Below, piece after piece: positions 45,230 to 55,311 of a DNA stretch of 64,000 nucleotides. The DNA lies in the NCBI RefSeq assembly GCF_003201205.1, contig NZ_QICN01000003.1, positions 124,001 to 188,000 of the forward strand. Reading direction: 5' to 3'. Position numbers and translations under genes: made by a program. Position 1 is the stretch's first letter. Each line of letters begins with the position of its first letter. The stretch is from Sinimarinibacterium flocculans (lineage in GTDB: Bacteria > Pseudomonadota > Gammaproteobacteria > Nevskiales > Nevskiaceae). The notes beneath the pieces are model-generated. The model was not told where the DNA came from. It searched no databases and saw only the letters and a program-made list of their open reading frames with translations.

Positions 45230-46333
45230 TCAGTCCGTGCAGCGCGCCGCGCCGACGCCGTCGAGCAGCTCGCCCAGATCGAAGGCGGCGACATTGCCGT
45301 CGTCGTGCACGGCGTAGAACGCGCCGTGATCGAACCCCGGCATCGGCGTCTGCGTCAGCCAGATGCCGTCGGTGTTGAGCACCGTCGGGCTGCCGACGCT
45401 GCCGCGGTATTCCAGCGTCTGGCGGTCGAACAGGTGGAAGAAGTTCTCCCGCTTGCCCTGGTCGGTGGCAAACCACCAGCCGCTGCCATCGGCACAGGCG
45501 TACAGCGCGATGCCCTCCGGCTGGAAGTGGAACACGCCGGCGCCGACGCGGCGGCCGGTGAACCGGCCGTCGAAGCCGTAGACCTTGATGTTGCGCTGGC
45601 GGTATTCCTCCTCGTCGGCAACCAGCAGGCGGCCGTGCCGCGGATCGCCCCAGATCGACTCGACGACGTGGAGCACGCCGAGGCCGGAGGTCTCGCCGAA
45701 CGCCCGCTCGCGCAGTACCGTCCAGCCGTCCGCCGTGCGGCGTACCAGGAACTGCTGCACGCGCCGGTCGAGCTCGGCAGGCGGCGGCACCGCTTCGTCC
45801 GCCGTCTCGTAGTTGTCGGTCACGTAGACCCGGTAGTCGCCGCCGGCGAGTCCGTGCACCCACAGACCGTAGGGTTTGCGCAGCGGTCCGTCGCCGTCGT
45901 TGCCGAACGTGAGCAGGGGCTCGAGGTCCGGAAGCTGCAGCACCTGCACGCGCCGGTTGTCGCGCTCGACGACGAAGGCCAGGTCGTCGATCACGAATAC
46001 CCCGTTGGGCCGGTCGAACTGCGCGGGGCCGGTGCCGGACTCGCCGAACTTGCGCTTCAGGGTGCCAGTGGCGGCGTCGTAGACCAGCAGGCGGTCGGTC
46101 TGCTTGGCCGTCGCGATCAGCAGATGCCGGCCGTCCGGCGCATGCCAGGTCGCCACGGAATCGGTGTTGTCGACCTCGTCGCGCACCGTCTGCCAGCGTT
46201 CGGACAGGCTCACGGCGCCGGCGACCGTCGGCAGCGGCGGCTCGCCGTCCATCGCGCGCTCCAGACCGGCACAGCCGCCGAGGCCGAGCGCCAGCGGGAT
46301 TGCGGCGAGCGCAACCAGACGTCTTGCGATCAT
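45230..46333 (-). CDS. beta-propeller phytase, lipoprotein
   Basis: A 367-residue protein of the beta-propeller phytase family, which strips phosphate from inositol hexakisphosphate in a calcium-dependent way. A lipoprotein signal ends GLGGC (Cys at about residue 21), so it should be anchored in the outer membrane. Features shared with phytases of xanthomonads and relatives: HLLIATAKQTDRLLVYDAATG, FDRPNGVFVIDDLAFVVERDN, ESIWGDPRHGRLLVADEEE, FQPEGIALYACADGSGWWFATDQG and the final GAFYAVHDDGNVAAFDL. It lies between a TonB receptor gene (11 nt) and the PhoX-like gene (16 nt). Confidence 0.85.
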   Translation of the reverse strand: MIARRLVALAAIPLALGLGGCAGLERAMDGEPPLPTVAGAVSLSERWQTVRDEVDNTDSVATWHAPDGRHLLIATAKQTDRLLVYDAATGTLKRKFGESGTGPAQFDRPNGVFVIDDLAFVVERDNRRVQVLQLPDLEPLLTFGNDGDGPLRKPYGLWVHGLAGGDYRVYVTDNYETADEAVPPPAELDRRVQQFLVRRTADGWTVLRERAFGETSGLGVLHVVESIWGDPRHGRLLVADEEEYRQRNIKVYGFDGRFTGRRVGAGVFHFQPEGIALYACADGSGWWFATDQGKRENFFHLFDRQTLEYRGSVGSPTVLNTDGIWLTQTPMPGFDHGAFYAVHDDGNVAAFDLGELLDGVGAARCTD

Positions 46334-46344
46334 CGCGCGCCTCC

Positions 46345-48534
46345 TCAGAAGCGACCGCGCAGCGTCAGGATCGCGATGCGCCCGACACTTTCGGTCTCGA
46401 CTTCGAACTCCTCGAGCTGGCCGTCCGGCAGGTCATCGTCGAACACGCGGAAGGTCTCGTCCTTGTGCGCGTCGAGCAGGTTGGTGCCGTTGAGCTTCAC
46501 CCAGAGATTCTCGCTGATCTGATATTCGACGAAGGCCTCGAGATTACCGTCGTAGCGCACGTCCGCAATCTCGTCCGATTCGTATTCGAGCGCGCGCCCC
46601 TGCTTCTGGAAGCTGGCGCCCCAGGTGATGCGCTGCGGCAGCTTGTGCGTGAAGCCGAGGTTGAACACATAGACCGGCTGCAGCTGGAAGCGACGCTGCT
46701 GACCGGTGAACGGGTCGGTGATTTCCGATTTCTGGTAGCTGTAGTTGCCGTAGACGTTGACGCCCGGCAGGCCGAGCATCACCAGCGGGAAACTCGCGTC
46801 GAACTCGATGCCGTAGACCTCGCCGTCGCCGGTGTTCGACGGCGATTCGACGTCGTCCTCGATCTCGACGACCTCGATCAGATCGCTCACGTCCCGGTAG
46901 AACAGGTTCACGCCGACGATGCCGGCCTGATCGGCGAAGCGATGTTCGTAACCGAGGTCGTAGCCGATGGCCGTTTCCGGTTCGAGTTCCGGATTGCCGA
47001 CGAAGAACTCGCCGTCGTCCTCTTCGAGAAACGGCACCAGAGCGCTGAAGTCCGGACGGCGCACGGTGCGCGCGACGCTGGCGCGGATCTGGTCGTTCGC
47101 GGTGAACAGCCAGCGATAGTGAAGATTCGGATTGAGCTCGGTCTGGCTGTCGTCGGCTTCGTGCCGCTGGCCGTCCGAGTCGAAGCCCTCCTGCTCGAGC
47201 TCCGTGGTCTCCAGACGCAGGCCGGCGTCGATCGCGTGGCGGGCGTTCAGCGTCCAGGTGTACTGCGCGAAGGCGTCGAAGCGCTGCTCGCGAATCTCGT
47301 AGACGCCGTTGATCTCCGTCTCGTCCTCGAACTCGCCCGAGTCCTCGTCGAACTCCGCAGTGCGTGTGGCGGCATCGCGGGCCTTGCGTCCCAGGTCGAG
47401 GCCGACGAGCAGACGATCGTTCAGACCGAGCGGCAGTTCGAAGCTCGGCGACAGCCGCATCTCGGTATCGTCGGTGTCGATGGTCTCGGTCTCCAGCGCG
47501 ATCTCGACGTCGTCCTCGACCTCGCCGGCGACGTTGTCGATGTCGACATCGAAGCGGTTGTAGTCGAGCACGATGTTGAAGCGCGCCTCGCCGAACGGCT
47601 GCATGAAGCTGAGCGCCAGCCCGTGACTGTTCTCCTCGATGTCCTCGTGCTCGAACTCGATCGCGTCGAGCTCGGCGACGCCGTCCTCGACCTCGAAGTT
47701 CGGGGAGAACTGGTCCTCGTCGCGCCGGGTGCCGACCGAGTAGCCGTCCACCGAGAAGGTGCCGCCGGTGGTCAGCAGCCACGACAGCCTCAGGTTGCCG
47801 GCGAGATCGCGACTGTCCCGCACGTCGTCCTCCTGCGCGAAGGCGATCAGGTTGCCATCGGCGTCGTACAGGGTCTCGCGCTTGTCCTTGGCGTTGTAGC
47901 GGCCCTGGTAGTTGAGCGCGCCCATGTAGCTGAAGCGCCCGCTCTGGCCGCCGTAGCCGAGGTAGCCGCTGCCGCGCAGCGTGTCGTCGCCGCTGCGGTA
48001 GAGCCCGCTGCGGTACTGGCCGCCGGAGAACTCGCCGGCGTTCTTGAGCACGATGTTGATCGTGCCGCCGATGCCCTGCGCGTCGAGGTCGCCGGTCGGC
48101 GCGCGGATGATCTCGATGCGCTCGACCAGTTCCGCCGGAATGCGGTCGACGAAGACGCTGCGATCGTCGCCGGCGCCTGCCACGCGCTCGCCGTTGATCA
48201 GGATCTGCGTGTACTGCGTGCCGATGCCGCGCAGCTGCGGCGCGTCGTACTCGCCGACGTCGCTGGTGAAGGCCACACCCGGCACCTGCTTGAGCATGTC
48301 GCCGACCGACAGCGGTTCGAAGCGCGAGAAGTACGCGGCGTCGTAGATCAGGCGCGGCGACACCGACTCGCTGCGATATCGGAAAAAGTCGGCGCTGTCG
48401 GTCACGGTGATGGTGTCGAGCGGCGTCGGCGCGGTGTCGGCTTGCGCCGCGACCAGCGCCGGCCACACGCCGGCCATGACTGCGATGAGTGTCCTGCCGC
48501 CCTGCCGCCGCGGCACGATCGTACGGATGCGCAT
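46345..48534 (-). CDS. TonB-dependent receptor of the phytase/PhoX cluster
   Basis: A 729-residue outer-membrane receptor. A signal peptide (about 1-30) leads to the plug: a TonB-box-like DTITVTDSADF, GDMLKQVPGVAF, APQLRGIGTQYTQILINGERV and IERIEIIRAPTGDLDAQGIGGTINIVLK. The barrel ends in TLRGRF with terminal Phe. Extracellular loops are very rich in Asp and Glu (for example residues 290-370), unlike siderophore receptors. Receptors next to phytase genes are a known arrangement in several gammaproteobacteria. The substrate could be phytate, its breakdown products or a metal complex; the sequence does not decide. Confidence 0.92.
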   Translation of the reverse strand: MRIRTIVPRRQGGRTLIAVMAGVWPALVAAQADTAPTPLDTITVTDSADFFRYRSESVSPRLIYDAAYFSRFEPLSVGDMLKQVPGVAFTSDVGEYDAPQLRGIGTQYTQILINGERVAGAGDDRSVFVDRIPAELVERIEIIRAPTGDLDAQGIGGTINIVLKNAGEFSGGQYRSGLYRSGDDTLRGSGYLGYGGQSGRFSYMGALNYQGRYNAKDKRETLYDADGNLIAFAQEDDVRDSRDLAGNLRLSWLLTTGGTFSVDGYSVGTRRDEDQFSPNFEVEDGVAELDAIEFEHEDIEENSHGLALSFMQPFGEARFNIVLDYNRFDVDIDNVAGEVEDDVEIALETETIDTDDTEMRLSPSFELPLGLNDRLLVGLDLGRKARDAATRTAEFDEDSGEFEDETEINGVYEIREQRFDAFAQYTWTLNARHAIDAGLRLETTELEQEGFDSDGQRHEADDSQTELNPNLHYRWLFTANDQIRASVARTVRRPDFSALVPFLEEDDGEFFVGNPELEPETAIGYDLGYEHRFADQAGIVGVNLFYRDVSDLIEVVEIEDDVESPSNTGDGEVYGIEFDASFPLVMLGLPGVNVYGNYSYQKSEITDPFTGQQRRFQLQPVYVFNLGFTHKLPQRITWGASFQKQGRALEYESDEIADVRYDGNLEAFVEYQISENLWVKLNGTNLLDAHKDETFRVFDDDLPDGQLEEFEVETESVGRIAILTLRGRF

Positions 48535-48748: not shown

Positions 48749-49645
48749 ATGTGGCGACAACACCTCCCGTCCCTGCTGCTGCTGTGCGCGGCCCTGTGCG
48801 TCGGCTGCACGCTGGCGCTGTCGCTGGGCCAGCCCAAACCGCTGTCGGCGATCGCCTGGTATGACGTGCTCGGCGAGGCGGTGACCCTGCTGGTCGCCTG
48901 CGGCTGGCTCGGCCTGGTCGTCGCCTACCGCCCGAGGGGCTGGGTCAGCCACTGTCTGATCGCCGGTACCGGCCTGCTCATCTGGTCCTACGCGCTCGAC
49001 CTGTTCGACGAGTTCTTCAAGTACGTCGGCGTCGATCATCCGCAGAGCCTGCTGGAGTCCGCACCGGCGCCGTTCGGCATGCTGCTGCTGACGGTGGGTG
49101 TCGCGGGCTGGATGCGCGAGCAGCGGATCGTCCATCGCCAGCTCACCGGCCGCGAGCATTTCCTGCGCGACCACCGCCTGCTCGACCCCCTGACCAAGCT
49201 CTACAACCGCCGTTACCTGCAGCATGCGCTGGAGCGCGAGCTGGAACTGCGCAAGCCGGACGAGCCGCTGTCGCTGCTGGTGATCGACGTCGAGGGCTTT
49301 GCCGGCTACAACCATCGCCGTGGGGCGGCGGCCGGCGACCGGCTGCTGGTGCGGATCGCCGAGTGGGTGCTGATACGCATGCGACCGTCGAGCCTGCTGT
49401 GCCGCTACGGCGGTGATCGCTTCGTGATGCTGCTGCCCGACACGCCGCTGGCCCGGGCCGCCCGCCTGGCCCGTCACCTGCAGACCCGCTTCCCCGGGGC
49501 GCACGACGATGCCGAGGACTGCACGCTGCGTTGCAGCGCGCACGTCATCGACGGCGAGGCGCGCCCGCCGGCGCCTGCCGAACTGATGAGCGCGCTCGAA
49601 CGGCATGCGCGAACCGACGAACGCCCGCAGTGGAACCCTGCGTGA
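48749..49645 (+). CDS. membrane protein with degenerate GGDEF domain
   Basis: A 298-residue protein with an N-terminal membrane region (about 4-125, four or five helices) and a C-terminal GGDEF domain (about 145-290). The domain starts DPLTKLYNRRYLQHAL and keeps NH-x6-GDRLL, but the active-site signature is RYGGDRFVML: the catalytic and metal-binding Glu at residue 224 is Arg. The earlier metal Asp region reads VIDVEGF. It is therefore unlikely to make cyclic-di-GMP and may bind nucleotide or sense a signal. The stop overlaps the AraC-family gene start (GTGA), so the pair is coupled. Confidence 0.85.
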   Translation: MWRQHLPSLLLLCAALCVGCTLALSLGQPKPLSAIAWYDVLGEAVTLLVACGWLGLVVAYRPRGWVSHCLIAGTGLLIWSYALDLFDEFFKYVGVDHPQSLLESAPAPFGMLLLTVGVAGWMREQRIVHRQLTGREHFLRDHRLLDPLTKLYNRRYLQHALERELELRKPDEPLSLLVIDVEGFAGYNHRRGAAAGDRLLVRIAEWVLIRMRPSSLLCRYGGDRFVMLLPDTPLARAARLARHLQTRFPGAHDDAEDCTLRCSAHVIDGEARPPAPAELMSALERHARTDERPQWNPA

Positions 49646-50661
49646 CCGCACCGTTCGACAGCGAGGACAAGTGCCTGTGGCTGGCGTCCTCCTGCCAGGA
49701 CCTGATCGCCCTGTGCCTGCGACGCGACGCCGACCTGAACCGCCTGCTGTCCGGAACACGGATCTTCCCGGCGAACCTGGCCGTCGAGCACCATCGCATC
49801 GCCGCGCGCGACTGGCTGAACCTCGTGCGCAACTGCCGCAGACAGGTGCCGGTCGACGATCTGGCGTTCATGACCGCCGATGCGATGCTCGCCAATCGCG
49901 ACCATGCGTTCCTGCAGATGCTGCAGTGTGCCCCGGACCTGGGCAGTGCCCTGCGCGCATGGCACCGCCATCGCGCCGGCTTCCTGCCGTTGGTGCAGGT
50001 CAGTCCCGCCGGCAGCGACCGGGACCTGAGCCTGCATCTGCGACCGGCAATCGGACTGCAGGGTCAGGATGCCTTCGTCACCGAGCTGACGGTTTCCCTG
50101 CTGATCGGCCTGGTCCGCCACCAGCTCGACGACGCCACGTCGGGCATCAGCATCGAGCTGACCACGCAGCGCCCGGCCGACATCGAATCGTACCGGCTGC
50201 ACTGGCGCATAGAGCCGAGCTTCGATGCACCGGTCAACCGCGTGCGCATTGCCTATCCGCTGCTGTTCCGCCCGTTCGCCGGTAGCGATGCACAACGCTT
50301 CGCGCAACTGCAGGCAGGCCTGCGCGCGCTCAGCCGACATAGCGGCCGTCGCATCGGTCTGCTCGAATTCCTGCGTCGACGCATGCGGCGCGCACTGCCG
50401 CAGTTGCTCGGCCTCGAACAGGCGGCGGCCGCGTTGTCGATGAGTGGCAGCTCGCTCAAGCGCCTGCTCAAGCAGCATGGCGTCAGCTATGGCGAGCTGA
50501 TCGACGAGGTGCGCAGCGAACTCGCGTGGACGCTGCTGCGCGAGCAGCGCTGGTCGAACCCGCGCGTCGCCGAACGCCTCGGCTACGCCAACGAACACAA
50601 CTTCCGCCGCGCGTTCAAGCGCTGGACCGGACGCCCGCCGAGCGCCGTCCTGGCACCGTGA
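49642..50661 (+). CDS. AraC family transcriptional regulator
   Basis: A 339-residue regulator. Residues 1-200 form an N-terminal ligand-binding domain of the kind found in OruR/ArgR-type AraC proteins (the AraC_N-type arabinose-binding-like domain), and residues about 240-339 the AraC DNA-binding domain with two helix-turn-helix units: AAAALSMSGSSLKRLLKQHG and NPRVAERLGYANEHNFRRAFKRWTG. The start is a GTG at 49642 overlapping the GGDEF gene stop. The regulated genes are unknown; candidates are the neighbouring zinc or phytate operons. No obvious binding site can be named. Confidence 0.9.
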   Translation: MTAPFDSEDKCLWLASSCQDLIALCLRRDADLNRLLSGTRIFPANLAVEHHRIAARDWLNLVRNCRRQVPVDDLAFMTADAMLANRDHAFLQMLQCAPDLGSALRAWHRHRAGFLPLVQVSPAGSDRDLSLHLRPAIGLQGQDAFVTELTVSLLIGLVRHQLDDATSGISIELTTQRPADIESYRLHWRIEPSFDAPVNRVRIAYPLLFRPFAGSDAQRFAQLQAGLRALSRHSGRRIGLLEFLRRRMRRALPQLLGLEQAAAALSMSGSSLKRLLKQHGVSYGELIDEVRSELAWTLLREQRWSNPRVAERLGYANEHNFRRAFKRWTGRPPSAVLAP

Positions 50662-50723
50662 CGGCGACGGCGGTACGGGCACGCCGTAGACTGGCGCGCG
50701 ATGCCCTGCCCGATCGTGTCCTG

Positions 50724-51245
50724 ATGTCTGCCACCGCCGCACCGCATGAAGCCGCAAGCCCGGCGGAACCCGACGTCGTGCCCTGCGGTGCGCTGGCGGA
50801 CGGCACGCTGGACGCGTTCGTCGCGGCACAGGGCATGCGCCTGCAGTGGATCGCCGATGGCGAACCGATTCCCGGCAGCTACTGGGGCGAATCCGAAGCC
50901 GGGCTGCAGAAAGACACCCTGTTCGTCCGGCGCGACACGCCGGTGCACTCGGCACTGCACGAGCTTTGCCACTGGCTCTGCATGGACCCGTCGCGGCGCC
51001 AGCGCCTGCAGACCGACGCAGGTGGCGAGGACATCGAGGAAGCGGGCGTCTGCTATCTGCAGGCCCTGCTTGCCGAGACCGTCCCCGGTTACTCGCGGGC
51101 CCGCCTGTTTGCCGACATGGATGCCTGGGGCTATCACTACCGCCTCGGCAGCGCCCGGGCGTGGTTCGAGCAGGATGCCGAGGATGCGCGGGCCTGGCTG
51201 CGCCGGCACGGACTGATCGACGCCGAAGACCGCCCCTGCGGGTAG
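50724..51245 (+). CDS. HExxH-containing protein of unknown function
   Basis: A 173-residue cytoplasmic protein with no signal peptide. Its centre has SALHELCHWLCMD, an HExxH zincin motif, and about 25 residues later an acidic EDIEEAGVCYLQALL helix that could give the third metal ligand. The arrangement of a small domain around H-E-x-x-H-W recalls EpmC-type (YfcM) EF-P hydroxylases, but similarity beyond the motif is not clear to me and the call is left open. It may be a metalloprotease-like or metal-binding protein. The ATG at 50724 is 62 nt after the AraC gene and it ends 26 nt before the His-rich gene. Confidence 0.75.
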   Translation: MSATAAPHEAASPAEPDVVPCGALADGTLDAFVAAQGMRLQWIADGEPIPGSYWGESEAGLQKDTLFVRRDTPVHSALHELCHWLCMDPSRRQRLQTDAGGEDIEEAGVCYLQALLAETVPGYSRARLFADMDAWGYHYRLGSARAWFEQDAEDARAWLRRHGLIDAEDRPCG

Positions 51246-51271: not shown

Positions 51272-51565
51272 ATGCCGCTCATGCGTCGGCACCTGCCCAG
51301 ACACCTGCTGCTGATCCTGACCCTGGTCCTCGGCCAGTGGCTGGCGATCGCGCATGCGCACGAGCACGCCGCGCTCTCGGTCGATCAGGTCTGCCAGATC
51401 TGTCTGCATGCGCCGGGGATCGACACCGGCGCCCTCGGCGGCAAGCCCGCCTTCCTGCCGCCCCCGCCAAGCGGCGAAGCCCCCGGCTACCTGCCGCCGC
51501 CGGCAACGGCGCGGGCGCACCATCACCACACCCGTATCCGCGGTCCTCCGGCCGTCACCCGCTGA
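51272..51565 (+). CDS. small exported His-rich metal-binding protein (DUF2946-like)
   Basis: A 97-residue exported protein. A strong signal sequence (LLLILTLVLGQWLAIAHA) is followed by a HEHAALSVDQVCQICLHAP block with a Cys-x2-Cys pair and His residues, a Pro-rich middle, and a tail with a run of four His. This layout resembles DUF2946-type proteins that accompany copper or zinc TonB receptors. The start could be 51272 or an ATG three codons later (51281). It lies 98 nt before the ZnuD-like receptor and is probably the first gene of that operon. Likely role: periplasmic metal capture or sensing. Confidence 0.7.
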   Translation: MPLMRRHLPRHLLLILTLVLGQWLAIAHAHEHAALSVDQVCQICLHAPGIDTGALGGKPAFLPPPPSGEAPGYLPPPATARAHHHHTRIRGPPAVTR

Positions 51566-51663
51566 CGCCCGCTTTCGGAGCGCGCCGCCGCGATGTTGCG
51601 GCGTGCAGCGTTCCGCCGTGAATCGGCGCGTGCCCGCGCGGCACGTGCCCTGTTCCAGGACCC

Positions 51664-53832
51664 ATGATGGATACCCCTATTTGCATCCGCGTTTCGTGCG
51701 CGCTGTTCGCAGCCGCATTGCCCGCACTGGCTCACGGCCAGTCGCCACCCCCTGAAGAACCCGTAGAACTCGAGGAAATCATCGTCCGCTCCGGCCCGTT
51801 CGAGCGAACGGCCGATGAGCTTGTCCAACCTGTCGACGTCCTCAGCGGCGAGGCGCTCGAACGCCGCCGTCGCGGCACCGTCGGCGACGTGCTCGCCGAC
51901 CGCCCCGGCATCGCCAATGCCAGCTTCGGCCCGGGCGTCGGCCGGCCGGTGATCCGCGGCCAGGGCGGCCCGCGCGTGCTGCTGCTGGAGAACAGCATCG
52001 CCTCGATGGACGCCTCGTCGATCAGCGCCGACCACGCGGTGACGGTCGACCCGCTCGACGCCGACCAGATCGAGGTCATCAAGGGCCCGGCGACGCTGAT
52101 CTATGGCGGCGCCGCGTCGGCCGGCATCGTCAACGTCATCGACGACCGCCTGCCGGACATCGTCGTGCCGGGCCTGCGCCTGCGCGGCAACCTCTCCTAC
52201 GGCGACAACGGCGACGAGCGCAATGGCGCCCTGCGCGCGCGCTACGGCGTCGGCGAGTTCCAGCTCGGCGCCAACGTGGCCCGGCGAGAAGCCGGCGAGT
52301 TCGACATTCCCGGCTACGCGACACGCGCCGGTGCCGACGCGCACGAGGGACATGACCACGCCGAGGAGGAGGAAGAGGAGCGTTACGGCGTGCTCGATAA
52401 CAGCGATCTGCGCACCGACAGCTACGGCGCATCGGCCGCCTGGGTCCGCGACCGCAGCATGCTCGGCGTGGCGGTGACGCGCTTCGAATCCAACTACGGC
52501 ATTCCCGGACACGGGCACGCCCACGAGGAAGACGCCGGCGAAGAAGAGGAGGCGCACAGCCACGACGGTGTGCGCATCGACATGGAGCAGACGCGCACCG
52601 ACCTGCGTGGCCTGCTCTACGACCCGCTGCCGGGATTCGACCGTCTGGAGCTGCGCGCCGGCGTCAACGACTACCGGCACCGGGAGATCGAGCCCGGCGG
52701 CGAGGTCGGCACGACCTTCGACGTGCAGGAGACCGAAACCCGCATCGAACTCGCCCATCGGCCCCTCGGCGAATGGGTCGGCGTCGCCGGCCTGCACGTC
52801 AGTCACCGGGACTTCGAGGCCGTGGGCGAGGAAGCGTTCGTCCCGCCCGTCGTCACCCGTGGCCTGGGGCTGTTCCTCGTCGAGAGCCGCAAGATCGCCG
52901 GCCACGAGTTCGAGATCGGCGCCCGCGTCGATCAGGTCGAACACGAACCGCAGTCCGATGCGCTCGCGGACACGGACTTCACGCCGCTGAGCCTGTCGAC
53001 CGGCATCAACTTCCTGTTCGGCGATCACCTGCACCTGCGCGTCAACCTGCAGCGTGCGCAGCGTGCACCGGCGGCCGAGGAGCTGTACGCCTTCGGCCCG
53101 CACCTGGCGACACTGGCCTTCGAGCGGGGCGATGTCGCGCTCGATGTGGAGACGGCGAACAACCTCGATCTCAGCTTCGGCCGCGACCGCGGTCGCTGGA
53201 CCTGGGAAGTCGGCGCGTTCTACAACCGCATCAACGACTATGTGTTCCTGCGCGAAGTCGACGAGGGTCTGAACGCGGACGGCAGCGGCACGCCGTCATC
53301 CGACGGCGTCGCCGACCGGGTCGACGAGTCGGGCACCTTCGAGGCCGACGGCGAGCTGCTGCTGGTGGATGTGACGCAGCAGGATGCCGAGTTCTACGGC
53401 GCCGAGATCTGGCTGCGCCACCAGCTTATCGACGAAGGACCGTTGCGCCTCGCCGTTCGCGGTTTCGGCGATACCGTTCGCGGGCGCCTGCGGTCCGGCG
53501 GACAGAATCTTCCGCGCATCTCGCCGTCGCGCCTGGGCATCAGCGCCGACGCCGAGTTCGGCGACTGGTCCGCGGCACTGGGCTACACGCGCGTGTTCGA
53601 ACACGATCGTCTGGCGCCGCTGGAGACCAACACGCCCGGACACGATCTGGTGTCGGCCGACCTGGAATACGCGCTGCCGTTCCAGAACGTACGCACCACG
53701 ATCTACCTGCAGGGCCGCAACCTGCTCGACGAGAAGCAACGACTGAGCACGTCGTTCCTCAAGGACGTGGCGCCTCAGCCCGGACGCTCGCTGTTCGTCG
53801 GGCTGCGCTTCGATTTCCTCTCGCCGGTCTGA
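51664..53832 (+). CDS. znuD: ZnuD-like TonB-dependent zinc receptor
   Basis: A 722-residue outer-membrane receptor. Signal peptide 1-26; the plug has EIIVRSGPFERTADELVQPV, then PVIRGQGGPRVLLLENSIASMD, SADHAVTVDPLDADQIEVIKGPATLIYGGAASAGIVNVID, close to Neisseria ZnuD. Two loops are metal-binding in composition: residues 227-239 (HEGHDHAEEEEEE) and 283-300 (HGHAHEEDAGEEEEAHSH). DFYGAEIWL and RVPAARLG-like blocks near the C terminus and the final RFDFLSPV complete the barrel. It is followed by an AztD-like lipoprotein. Zinc is the inferred substrate; other divalent metals remain possible. Confidence 0.9.
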   Translation: MMDTPICIRVSCALFAAALPALAHGQSPPPEEPVELEEIIVRSGPFERTADELVQPVDVLSGEALERRRRGTVGDVLADRPGIANASFGPGVGRPVIRGQGGPRVLLLENSIASMDASSISADHAVTVDPLDADQIEVIKGPATLIYGGAASAGIVNVIDDRLPDIVVPGLRLRGNLSYGDNGDERNGALRARYGVGEFQLGANVARREAGEFDIPGYATRAGADAHEGHDHAEEEEEERYGVLDNSDLRTDSYGASAAWVRDRSMLGVAVTRFESNYGIPGHGHAHEEDAGEEEEAHSHDGVRIDMEQTRTDLRGLLYDPLPGFDRLELRAGVNDYRHREIEPGGEVGTTFDVQETETRIELAHRPLGEWVGVAGLHVSHRDFEAVGEEAFVPPVVTRGLGLFLVESRKIAGHEFEIGARVDQVEHEPQSDALADTDFTPLSLSTGINFLFGDHLHLRVNLQRAQRAPAAEELYAFGPHLATLAFERGDVALDVETANNLDLSFGRDRGRWTWEVGAFYNRINDYVFLREVDEGLNADGSGTPSSDGVADRVDESGTFEADGELLLVDVTQQDAEFYGAEIWLRHQLIDEGPLRLAVRGFGDTVRGRLRSGGQNLPRISPSRLGISADAEFGDWSAALGYTRVFEHDRLAPLETNTPGHDLVSADLEYALPFQNVRTTIYLQGRNLLDEKQRLSTSFLKDVAPQPGRSLFVGLRFDFLSPV

Positions 53833-53926
53833 GCCCTGTCGTTGCCCGGCGCCCTGCGCCACACCCTTCCACTGCATGTCGCGGTGCTTCGCTGCCTGCG
53901 CGCGAAGACCGCCAAGGAGTCATCCC

Positions 53927-55189
53927 ATGTTGAATGCCCTTCGTACTGCTTCCTTTCTGCGCCTTTCGCTGATCGCCGTCGCAGCGTCGCTCGCTGCCTG
54001 CAACGATGACGACGCCCTGCGCGGCGGCGACGATCACGACCACACCGAATCCGGCGGCCGTCTTGCCTTCGCCACTGTCGAGGGCGATCCGCAGCTGCTG
54101 GTCCACGATCTCGACAGTGGCCAGACCACCGCCATCGCTCTGAGCAACGCGCCCACCGCCGTCTACGCCAGCCCCGAGGGACGCTACGCCGTCGTCGTGC
54201 AGTCCGGGGCAGGCCAGGTCAACTTCGTCGACGGCGGCATCTGGCTGCACGACGATCACGCCCATGCCGACGAACCCGAACTGCTCGACTTCACCCTGTT
54301 CGGCGCCAAACCGGCGCACTACCAGACGCACGAGGAGCAGGCGGCACTGTTCTACGACGGCGAGGGCGGCACGCCGGCCAAGTTCGACATCTTCTCCGAC
54401 GAAAGTCTGGCCGACGGTGGTGTGCTGGCCTCACAGACACTCCCGGCTGCCGTGCACGGCGTCGCCGAACCGCGCGACGGCTACGTGCTGGCCGTCGACT
54501 ACTCCGCCGAGGAAGCGGCCGCCGGTGCACCGCGCAGCGCCGTCAAGCTCTACGAACTGCATGACGACCACTTCCACGACGAAGGCCGCTTCGAGACCCT
54601 CTGCGAGAACCTGCACGGCAGCGCCACCAACGAGGACTATGTAGCGTTCGGCTGCCAGGATGGCGTGCTCGTGATCGAACAGGACGGCAGCAGCTTCACC
54701 GACAGCAAGATCGCGATCGACCGCCGCATCACGCAGATGGCCGGCCACCACGCGGTCCCGTTCCTGGTCGCGTTTGCCGGTGCCGCCGACGACGACGCGC
54801 TGTTCGTGATCGATCCGGCGGCGGGATCAGCCGAAGCGTTCGACTGGAAAGACGGCGCCGCCGTGAACCGCCGTCAGCACACCTTCGATGCGCACGGCGA
54901 ACATCTGCTGATTCTCGACAGCGCGGGCACGTTGCACGTGCTCGAAGTCCACGACGATCACTTCGACGTTGCCGGCCGCATCGACGTACTGACCGGCGAC
55001 GACACCGCCGCGCGCATGGCCACCAGCGCCGGCGGCGATCTCGCCTTCGTGACCGACAGCGCCGGCAAGTCCGTCGTGGTGGTCGATCTGGAAGACCTCG
55101 AGGTCGTCGACCACATCGACCTCGGCTTCGCGCCAGTCGGCATCGCCTGGCTCGGTATTGCCGAGGAGGAGCACGGGCACGACCACTGA
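53927..55189 (+). CDS. AztD-like metal-binding beta-propeller lipoprotein
   Basis: A 420-residue protein. The lipoprotein signal ends LAAC (Cys25), then a His/Asp cluster DDHDHTE. The mature domain is a beta-propeller with blades such as DPQLLVHDLDSGQ and DDDALFVIDPAAGSA, resembling the zinc chaperone AztD, which passes zinc to the binding protein of an ABC importer. More metal-site-like clusters follow: LHDDHAHADE, HDDHFHDEG, VHDDHFDV and the C-terminal EEEHGHDH. Known AztD proteins are soluble; this one is lipid-anchored. An AAGGAG site precedes the ATG. No aztABC importer is in the window. It is 94 nt after the ZnuD-like receptor. Confidence 0.83.
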   Translation: MLNALRTASFLRLSLIAVAASLAACNDDDALRGGDDHDHTESGGRLAFATVEGDPQLLVHDLDSGQTTAIALSNAPTAVYASPEGRYAVVVQSGAGQVNFVDGGIWLHDDHAHADEPELLDFTLFGAKPAHYQTHEEQAALFYDGEGGTPAKFDIFSDESLADGGVLASQTLPAAVHGVAEPRDGYVLAVDYSAEEAAAGAPRSAVKLYELHDDHFHDEGRFETLCENLHGSATNEDYVAFGCQDGVLVIEQDGSSFTDSKIAIDRRITQMAGHHAVPFLVAFAGAADDDALFVIDPAAGSAEAFDWKDGAAVNRRQHTFDAHGEHLLILDSAGTLHVLEVHDDHFDVAGRIDVLTGDDTAARMATSAGGDLAFVTDSAGKSVVVVDLEDLEVVDHIDLGFAPVGIAWLGIAEEEHGHDH

Positions 55190-55209: not shown

Positions 55210-55242
55210 AAAGGCCGGTGCGATGCTGCACCGGCCTTTTTC
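55210..55242 (+). terminator. rho-independent terminator of the zinc operon
   Basis: AAAGGCCGGTGC and GCACCGGCCTTT form a 12-bp perfect stem followed by TTTTC. It begins 20 bases after the AztD-like stop codon. Confidence 0.9.
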
Positions 55243-55311
55243 GTGTCGCCGACCGCTGTCCTTTGGATCTTTCGCCCCAGCCATCCATGGCGCAGCGGCG
55301 CGCTACCTAGA

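Follow-up and report, generated by a model that had tools for sequence, protein, structure and literature searches.

A putative zinc-acquisition operon of Sinimarinibacterium flocculans whose first gene is a candidate metal-sensing leader peptide

Which metal is served by the three genes at positions 51272 to 55189 of a 64,000-nucleotide stretch of the Sinimarinibacterium flocculans genome (contig NZ_QICN01000003.1, positions 124,001 to 188,000; the whole stretch is called the window here), and what does the small first gene do? Accounts of zinc uptake in bacteria mostly invoke Zur or other transcription factors, and metal-sensing leader peptides for transition metals have been worked out, in the literature that we found, for copper. 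We read the locus as a zinc-acquisition operon under post-transcriptional control of its own first gene and give this reading, taken whole, a probability of about 0.6. A role of the operon in zinc acquisition is very probable, and we consider it likely, by analogy, that the first gene is a cis-acting leader-peptide regulator; for zinc as the signal of that peptide, which rests on the same analogy, our confidence is lower, though it still leans in favor. If true, a zinc leader would add a layer of control and explain the small open-reading frames (ORFs) at many zinc-uptake operons. The features of the locus are the following.

51272..51565, plus strand: leader ORF of 97 amino acids; homologues put the likely start at 51281
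Motifs of the leader ORF, in order: signal-like N-terminus, H28xxxH32, C41xxC44, 45 residues, R90-G-P-P93, then four residues to the stop
51441..51663, plus strand: candidate Rho entry/termination region, made up of the last part of the leader ORF, rich in C and poor in G, and of the 98-base gap up to the receptor gene
51664..53832, plus strand: ZnuD-like TonB-dependent receptor of 722 amino acids; ligands D122, H123, E340 and H479 (numbering from the ATG at 51667)
53927..55189, plus strand: AztD-family beta-propeller of the eight-bladed type, 420 amino acids, predicted lipoprotein (lipobox LAAC, Cys25)
Residues of the propeller: site-1 H131, H177 and H230; disulfide C226 and C243; putative site 2 with H108, H111, H113 and the C-terminal His
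~55210-55244, plus strand: terminator-like hairpin with a T run, 3′ of the AztD-like gene; fold -29.8 kcal/mol, z -4.07

An earlier note on this DNA, made from the sequence alone, had described three consecutive genes with metal-binding clusters that end in a strong terminator. All three proved to be real genes with predicted metal-binding residues, and the hairpin bears out the terminator; a pattern scan gave a single terminator-like site at the hairpin, with its score on the minus strand and 1.5 expected in shuffles, and found no promoter-like site. The source genome (4.40 Mb in 39 contigs, with the window within contig C3) is rated 100% complete.

The evidence for zinc begins with the second gene, a TonB-dependent receptor with plug and barrel domains (PF07715 and PF00593) that both scored above cut-off. 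Its best NCBIfam match was ZnuD (NF038289; E 1.2e-122), with 411 bits, which is below the cut-off of 950 for ZnuD proper, so that the protein is called ZnuD-like here. The closest solved structure was likewise ZnuD (PDB 4rdr, E 2.6e-62). The high-affinity zinc ligands of ZnuD are Asp99, His100, Glu340, and His499 (PMC4557270), and all four fell, with one constant offset, on identical residues of the receptor, in keeping with the closeness to ZnuD claimed before.

The third gene can be assigned, with good support from its sequence, its predicted fold, and its zinc and disulfide residues, as a relative of the zinc chaperone AztD. Pfam gave no match for it up to E 0.1. It matched the NCBIfam AztD family (NF038015; E 2.2e-33, 115 bits) below the cut-off of 400, and its matches in the PDB were 6cmk (E 6e-17) and 6ck1 (E 2e-12). 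A model built from 51 sequences reached a mean predicted local distance difference test score (pLDDT) of 90.3, and a fold comparison over 963 chains put three AztD entries on top, with Z of 38.1-39.1 and the next entry at 24.8. PMC6689063 gives the histidines of site 1 and the cysteines of the disulfide in AztD, and their equivalents here (H131, H177, H230, C226, and C243) were invariant in 51/51 sequences, so the AztD-like chaperone of the earlier note is upheld by the fold, the site-1 triad, and the disulfide. Site 2 differs. The turn, as placed by our own alignment, reads HxDHxH in eight aligned sequences and is accompanied by a His-rich C-terminal tail, so the Asp ligand of AztD site 2 seems to be replaced by His; the third His of HxDHxH lies outside the positions conserved at 90% in the 51 sequences.

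Within the order the receptor is common (51/85 genomes at E<=1e-60) and the propeller patchy, being found in 8/85 genomes and in 0/10 congeners. A contig scan was made for relatives of the propeller, and the best 80 of 126 were used for neighborhood counts. A ZnuD-like receptor gene stood beside the propeller gene in 56/80 loci, upstream in 45 and downstream in 11, and the view that the combination of ZnuD with an AztD-type protein is unusual was thus not borne out. ZnuA or ZnuB was encoded on the same strand in 10/80 loci (one of them also with a receptor; 12 counting either strand), and 15/80 had neither a receptor nor ZnuA/ZnuB. Zur sites with <=3 mismatches were present upstream in 49 of the 76 usable loci, where shuffles predict 2.7; the other four of the 80 were left out of this count for upstream sequence that was too short. 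We found no paper in the open-access literature that mentions both AztD and ZnuD, most subscription papers lying outside that literature.

Genome G031 has the pair as an insertion within a cluster that runs COG0523, methyltransferase, MerC, COG0523, ABC ATPase, FtsX-like permease, DUF3299, and Zur. The window's genome has the same cluster on contig C10 without the receptor-propeller pair (L118:9666-16950), with two COG0523 GTPases, a methyltransferase, a MerC-like protein, a DUF3299 lipoprotein, a FUR-family gene, and an FtsX-like permease that carries a His-rich loop. In two Hydrocarboniphaga loci (L012 and L015), two diverged receptors are arranged head to head; both have a leader ORF of their own, and the AztD-like gene lies behind only one of them.

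For the first gene, a profile search seeded with the window ORF and one homologue, and run over loci chosen for zinc genes, returned 44 relatives, 39 of them distinct (L023, L025, and L026 repeat L011, L012, and L015); the window's own ORF, whose open frame extends farther upstream, is for that reason not among them. All 44 lie directly upstream of a receptor gene (40) or of BBP2-ZnuA-ABC3 genes (4), in loci that were, as stated, selected for zinc. Among 21 aligned members, HxxxH, CxxC, and the C-terminal PP are invariant. The AHHHH run of the window ORF is not conserved in the family. The spacing from CxxC to RxPP, which is 45 residues in the window ORF with RGPP four residues from the end, is 44-45 in 34/35 leader rows of the order's receptor loci, and HxxxH is present in 34/35 of the same rows. 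The ratio of nonsynonymous to synonymous substitution rates (dN/dS) was 0.17-0.57 in five pairs, and the ORF is therefore most likely translated and selected.

This layout recalls CruR and CutF, two members of the DUF2946 family (PMC9426467; PMC9973294). CruR is the first ORF of the copper-repressed receptor operon cruR-bfrG-bp2921 of Bordetella pertussis; copper is sensed by CxxC in the nascent chain, the arrest at RAPP, 45 residues on, is relieved, and Rho termination follows (PMC9426467). Pfam DUF2946 (PF11162) matched 10/21 family members, weakly, with a best E of 4.9e-4, and the leader profile compared with a profile of nine DUF2946 ORFs that Pfam recognizes in the order gave a probability of 93.9 and E 1.5e-7.

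A periplasmic zinc-capture role had been proposed for the small protein, which would then be a mature exported binder passing zinc from the receptor to the chaperone. The signal-like N-terminus, the conserved His and Cys pairs, and the position next to zinc genes all speak for such a protein. We nevertheless consider it unlikely, since the 44-45 spacing between CxxC and a C-terminal RxPP is kept across a spacer that is hardly conserved, the family resembles DUF2946, the HHHH run is not conserved, and CruR itself was judged short-lived and without further function (PMC9426467). Constant spacing across so variable a stretch is more in line with an arrest peptide than with a binding protein that folds, and the CruR/CutF layout of CxxC, spacing, RGPP or RAPP, and first position in the operon makes a leader the better reading of the first gene.

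The base composition of the leader end and gap is as would be expected of a Rho entry region. The C-G skew there is 0.188, a value reached by 0.5% of 211 neighboring sense windows. Over 28 loci, C exceeded G in the ORF end and gap in every case (28/28, mean skew 0.15), and further down the mean was 0.03, with positive values in 20/28.

Taken together, these features suggest the following mechanism. Zinc would pass the outer membrane via the ZnuD-like receptor, and the AztD-like protein would take it up and hand it over to an inner-membrane importer other than ZnuABC or AztABC. When zinc is scarce, the ribosome would stall at the leader RGPP and, by analogy to CruR, the C-rich mRNA would be shielded from Rho; under this proposal, the receptor and chaperone genes would therefore be transcribed. 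When zinc is sufficient, it would bind the nascent chain at CxxC, probably with the HxxxH pair, and relieve the stall, after which Rho would terminate transcription ahead of the receptor gene. The leader switch would thus do here the job of the Zur box at many relatives.

This raises the question of whether the operon is instead an ordinary Zur target. Scans were made with TGTTATANTATAACA, which we take to be the Zur consensus. It is similar to the Zur sites given in PMC4176598. For the position weight matrix (PWM), the training set was 47 sites that TGTTATANTATAACA had found, some of them in loci that were scored afterward; the threshold of 18 was set after the scores had been seen. Neither the consensus nor the PWM scan gave anything better than shuffles or background at the window operon, so that the Zur box for which a search had been suggested is not recognizable there, though many relatives have one.

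The possibility that the box is degenerate, with the small ORF a minor attenuator or a relic, gains from the presence of a Zur-like protein in the genome and of one clear Zur box (score 28.7), the only site genome-wide within 2 mismatches, upstream of the C10 cluster. It gains as well from the closest relative, G035, in which a Zur-like site scoring 18.6 stands just ahead of the AztD-like gene. Against this, the best PWM score was -8.0 near the operon and 2.4 in the whole window, compared to 18 to 38 for 45/47 training sites, and all five pairs tested show purifying selection on the ORF. We therefore regard an ordinary Zur target as improbable, slightly more so than an exported binder, and prefer control by the leader.

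The distribution of the two elements agrees with control by the leader. The order gave 40 receptor loci, once three duplicates had been removed from 43 rows (L161 of L147, one L012 row of L125, and one L015 row of L123). The ORF alone was present in 29 of these, a Zur site alone in 5, both in 4, and neither in 2 (Fisher p 0.003). In 76 AztD loci, a set that partly overlaps the receptor loci, the corresponding numbers were 14, 43, 6, and 13 (p 0.0003). Leader ORF and Zur box thus tend, by these counts, to replace each other, and the window operon has the ORF and no recognizable Zur box.

We then asked how far the leader extends through the class. The leader alignment alone, used as query over 369 genomes, matched 58 of them (the window's genome included), in 53/272 genera. 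Of the 57 other matching genomes, the 29 best-scoring ones were looked at; their leader loci were followed by a BBP2-type outer-membrane protein in 20, and by a ZnuD-like receptor in 4, with 5 left unassigned. All 20 BBP2 loci (L233-L252), when extended, had the BBP2/OmpL-like beta-barrel followed by a ZnuA homologue (20/20), with an ABC-3 permease recognized in 14/20, and a Zur site lay upstream of the leader in 2/20, with some hundreds of upstream bases covered. Four class-wide loci gave no ORF by pattern, L221 had no downstream match, and in L224 the pattern matched in the wrong frame, although a receptor follows. The CxxC-to-RxPP spacing was 44-45 in 21/24 true ORFs and 42-43 in three.

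By a narrow margin we favor reading this widespread family as zinc-sensing nascent peptides that would switch zinc-uptake operons by stall relief and Rho termination, replacing or backing up Zur, and that would include the first zinc-sensing arrest peptide. The operons so switched would be those with a ZnuD-like receptor, whether AztD is present or not, and those of the BBP2-ZnuA-ZnuB type, and zinc would perhaps be sensed by a Cys2His2-like site closing on the ribosome.

The Pfam-recognized DUF2946 ORFs of the same order differ in their surroundings and motifs. Of their 30 loci, 20 gave a CxxC-RxPP ORF, these head other genes, and HxxxH was present in 2/20. Seven starts downstream comprised two PCuAC proteins, one DUF1775 protein, two receptor plugs, and two without a match. 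The window's own genome has a second, Pfam-recognized leader-like ORF of this kind (C3:465922-466287, L200; spacing 44), which precedes a protein with a Cys-rich start and lies ~7 kb from the ZIP gene described below.

These contrasts bear on the metal. Because the characterized CruR and CutF respond to copper, the operon might serve copper or another metal, as the DUF2946 relationship of the leader would allow and as the place of CruR before a TonB-dependent receptor would suggest (PMC9426467). The receptor, however, has a complete ZnuD zinc site and the propeller is an AztD relative; the relatives have ZnuA, Zur, and COG0523 neighbors as well as Zur boxes, and the recognized DUF2946 ORFs of the order head different genes. 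A copper operon, or one for another metal, is accordingly the least likely of the alternatives considered here, and we judge it very improbable.

Several points weigh against a zinc-sensing leader and have to be set beside this evidence. The stall, the binding of zinc, and the dependence on Rho are all argued by analogy. G035, the closest relative, ends in CGPP instead of RGPP (the one odd row of 35), and the window ORF itself has no Pfam DUF2946 match, the match in its genome being another ORF. Proline codons may lie partly behind the C richness. Both exclusion tests ignore shared ancestry, and ORF and Zur box occur together in 4/40 and 6/76 loci. In the class-wide set, HxxxH was present in 16/24 ORFs and missing in 8; the alignment used as query was derived from zinc loci and this test is therefore not wholly independent, and some members of the ZnuA family bind manganese or iron.

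The inner-membrane step is the remaining part of the pathway. No ABC importer stands beside the operon, as the earlier note had said, and the search elsewhere that it proposed, made over the whole genome, found neither the ZnuA family (PF01297) nor the ABC-3 permease family (PF00950). This absence raises the question of where an AztD-type chaperone delivers its zinc. Candidate inward importers are a ZIP protein with a borderline match, the only one in the genome (35.7 bits, cut-off 35.1), and the ABC system of FtsX/MacB type in the Zur cluster. In our own reading, the ABC genes of that cluster resemble PA4063-PA4066 of Pseudomonas aeruginosa (PMC8561739).

No link was seen between the lack of ZnuA and the presence of AztD, with ZnuA in 3/8 AztD genomes of the order versus 22/77 others. 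Among the matches listed, strong matches to the FtsX-like permease (E<=1e-40) occurred in at least 5/8 AztD genomes and at least 18/77 others, an association that is suggestive only. The BBP2-ZnuA order of the class-wide loci also occurs in the AztD loci L011, L033, L050, L053, L054, L057, L084, L087, and L156, and the BBP2/OmpL-like protein is a candidate outer-membrane zinc channel that would work without TonB.

Two further groups of genes lie close by in the window. At 45230-48534 on the minus strand, another TonB-dependent receptor stands beside a propeller protein with a weak likeness to phytase/ScyF; judged from the family matches obtained, this pair is not related to the zinc pair. At 49531-51245, an AraC-type regulator (QhpR-like, below cut-off) is found with a small HExxH-containing protein, which ends 26 bases ahead of the leader ORF.

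How does this locus compare to systems already described? The two outer parts have close counterparts. ZnuD of Neisseria meningitidis (4RDR; PMC4557270) shares the receptor family, all four ligands, and His/Asp/Glu-rich outer segments, whereas the window receptor falls below the NCBIfam ZnuD cut-off and its operon includes an AztD-like gene and a leader ORF. AztD of the AztABCD systems of Paracoccus denitrificans and Citrobacter koseri (6CK1, 6CMK; PMC6689063) is alike in the propeller fold, the site-1 His triad, the disulfide, and a C-terminal His. Unlike that AztD, the window propeller is a predicted lipoprotein, has, by our alignment, HxDHxH instead of H-G-D-H-R-D as its site-2 turn, and scores below the NCBIfam AztD cut-off, and its host genome is without AztABC or ZnuABC.

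For the leader, the literature offers partial counterparts. The main texts on CruR (PMC9426467) and CutF (PMC9973294) do not mention zinc, the CutF authors suggesting nickel or cobalt for some members (PMC9973294), and we found no description of a zinc-sensing leader ORF or zinc arrest peptide in open-access main texts, including PMC12914433. In a Caulobacter Zur study, two DUF2946 genes were lower in the zur mutant, and one of them, CC2720, heads the efflux operon czrCBA-zntA (PMC4176598); the link of the family to zinc was therefore glimpsed on the efflux side. CC2720 resembles the window leader in heading a zinc-related operon and differs in that this operon is activated through Zur with zinc (PMC4176598). 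CutF of cutFOG in Rhodobacter capsulatus shares the place ahead of a metal operon, the exported nascent chain, the Cys motif, and the proline motif at the C-terminus, but in response to copper it switches on a copper oxidase gene (PMC9973294), whereas the window operon should be metal-repressed, as with CruR. CruR is the closest, sharing the first position before a TonB-dependent receptor, the signal-like start, CxxC, an R[AG]PP close to the C-terminal end with 45 residues between the two motifs, and the gap before the receptor gene (PMC9426467). The window leader departs from it in its shorter N-terminal part, in the HxxxH that precedes CxxC in its clade, and in operon genes that point to zinc and not copper; stalling and a metal response, described for CruR, are predicted for the window leader.

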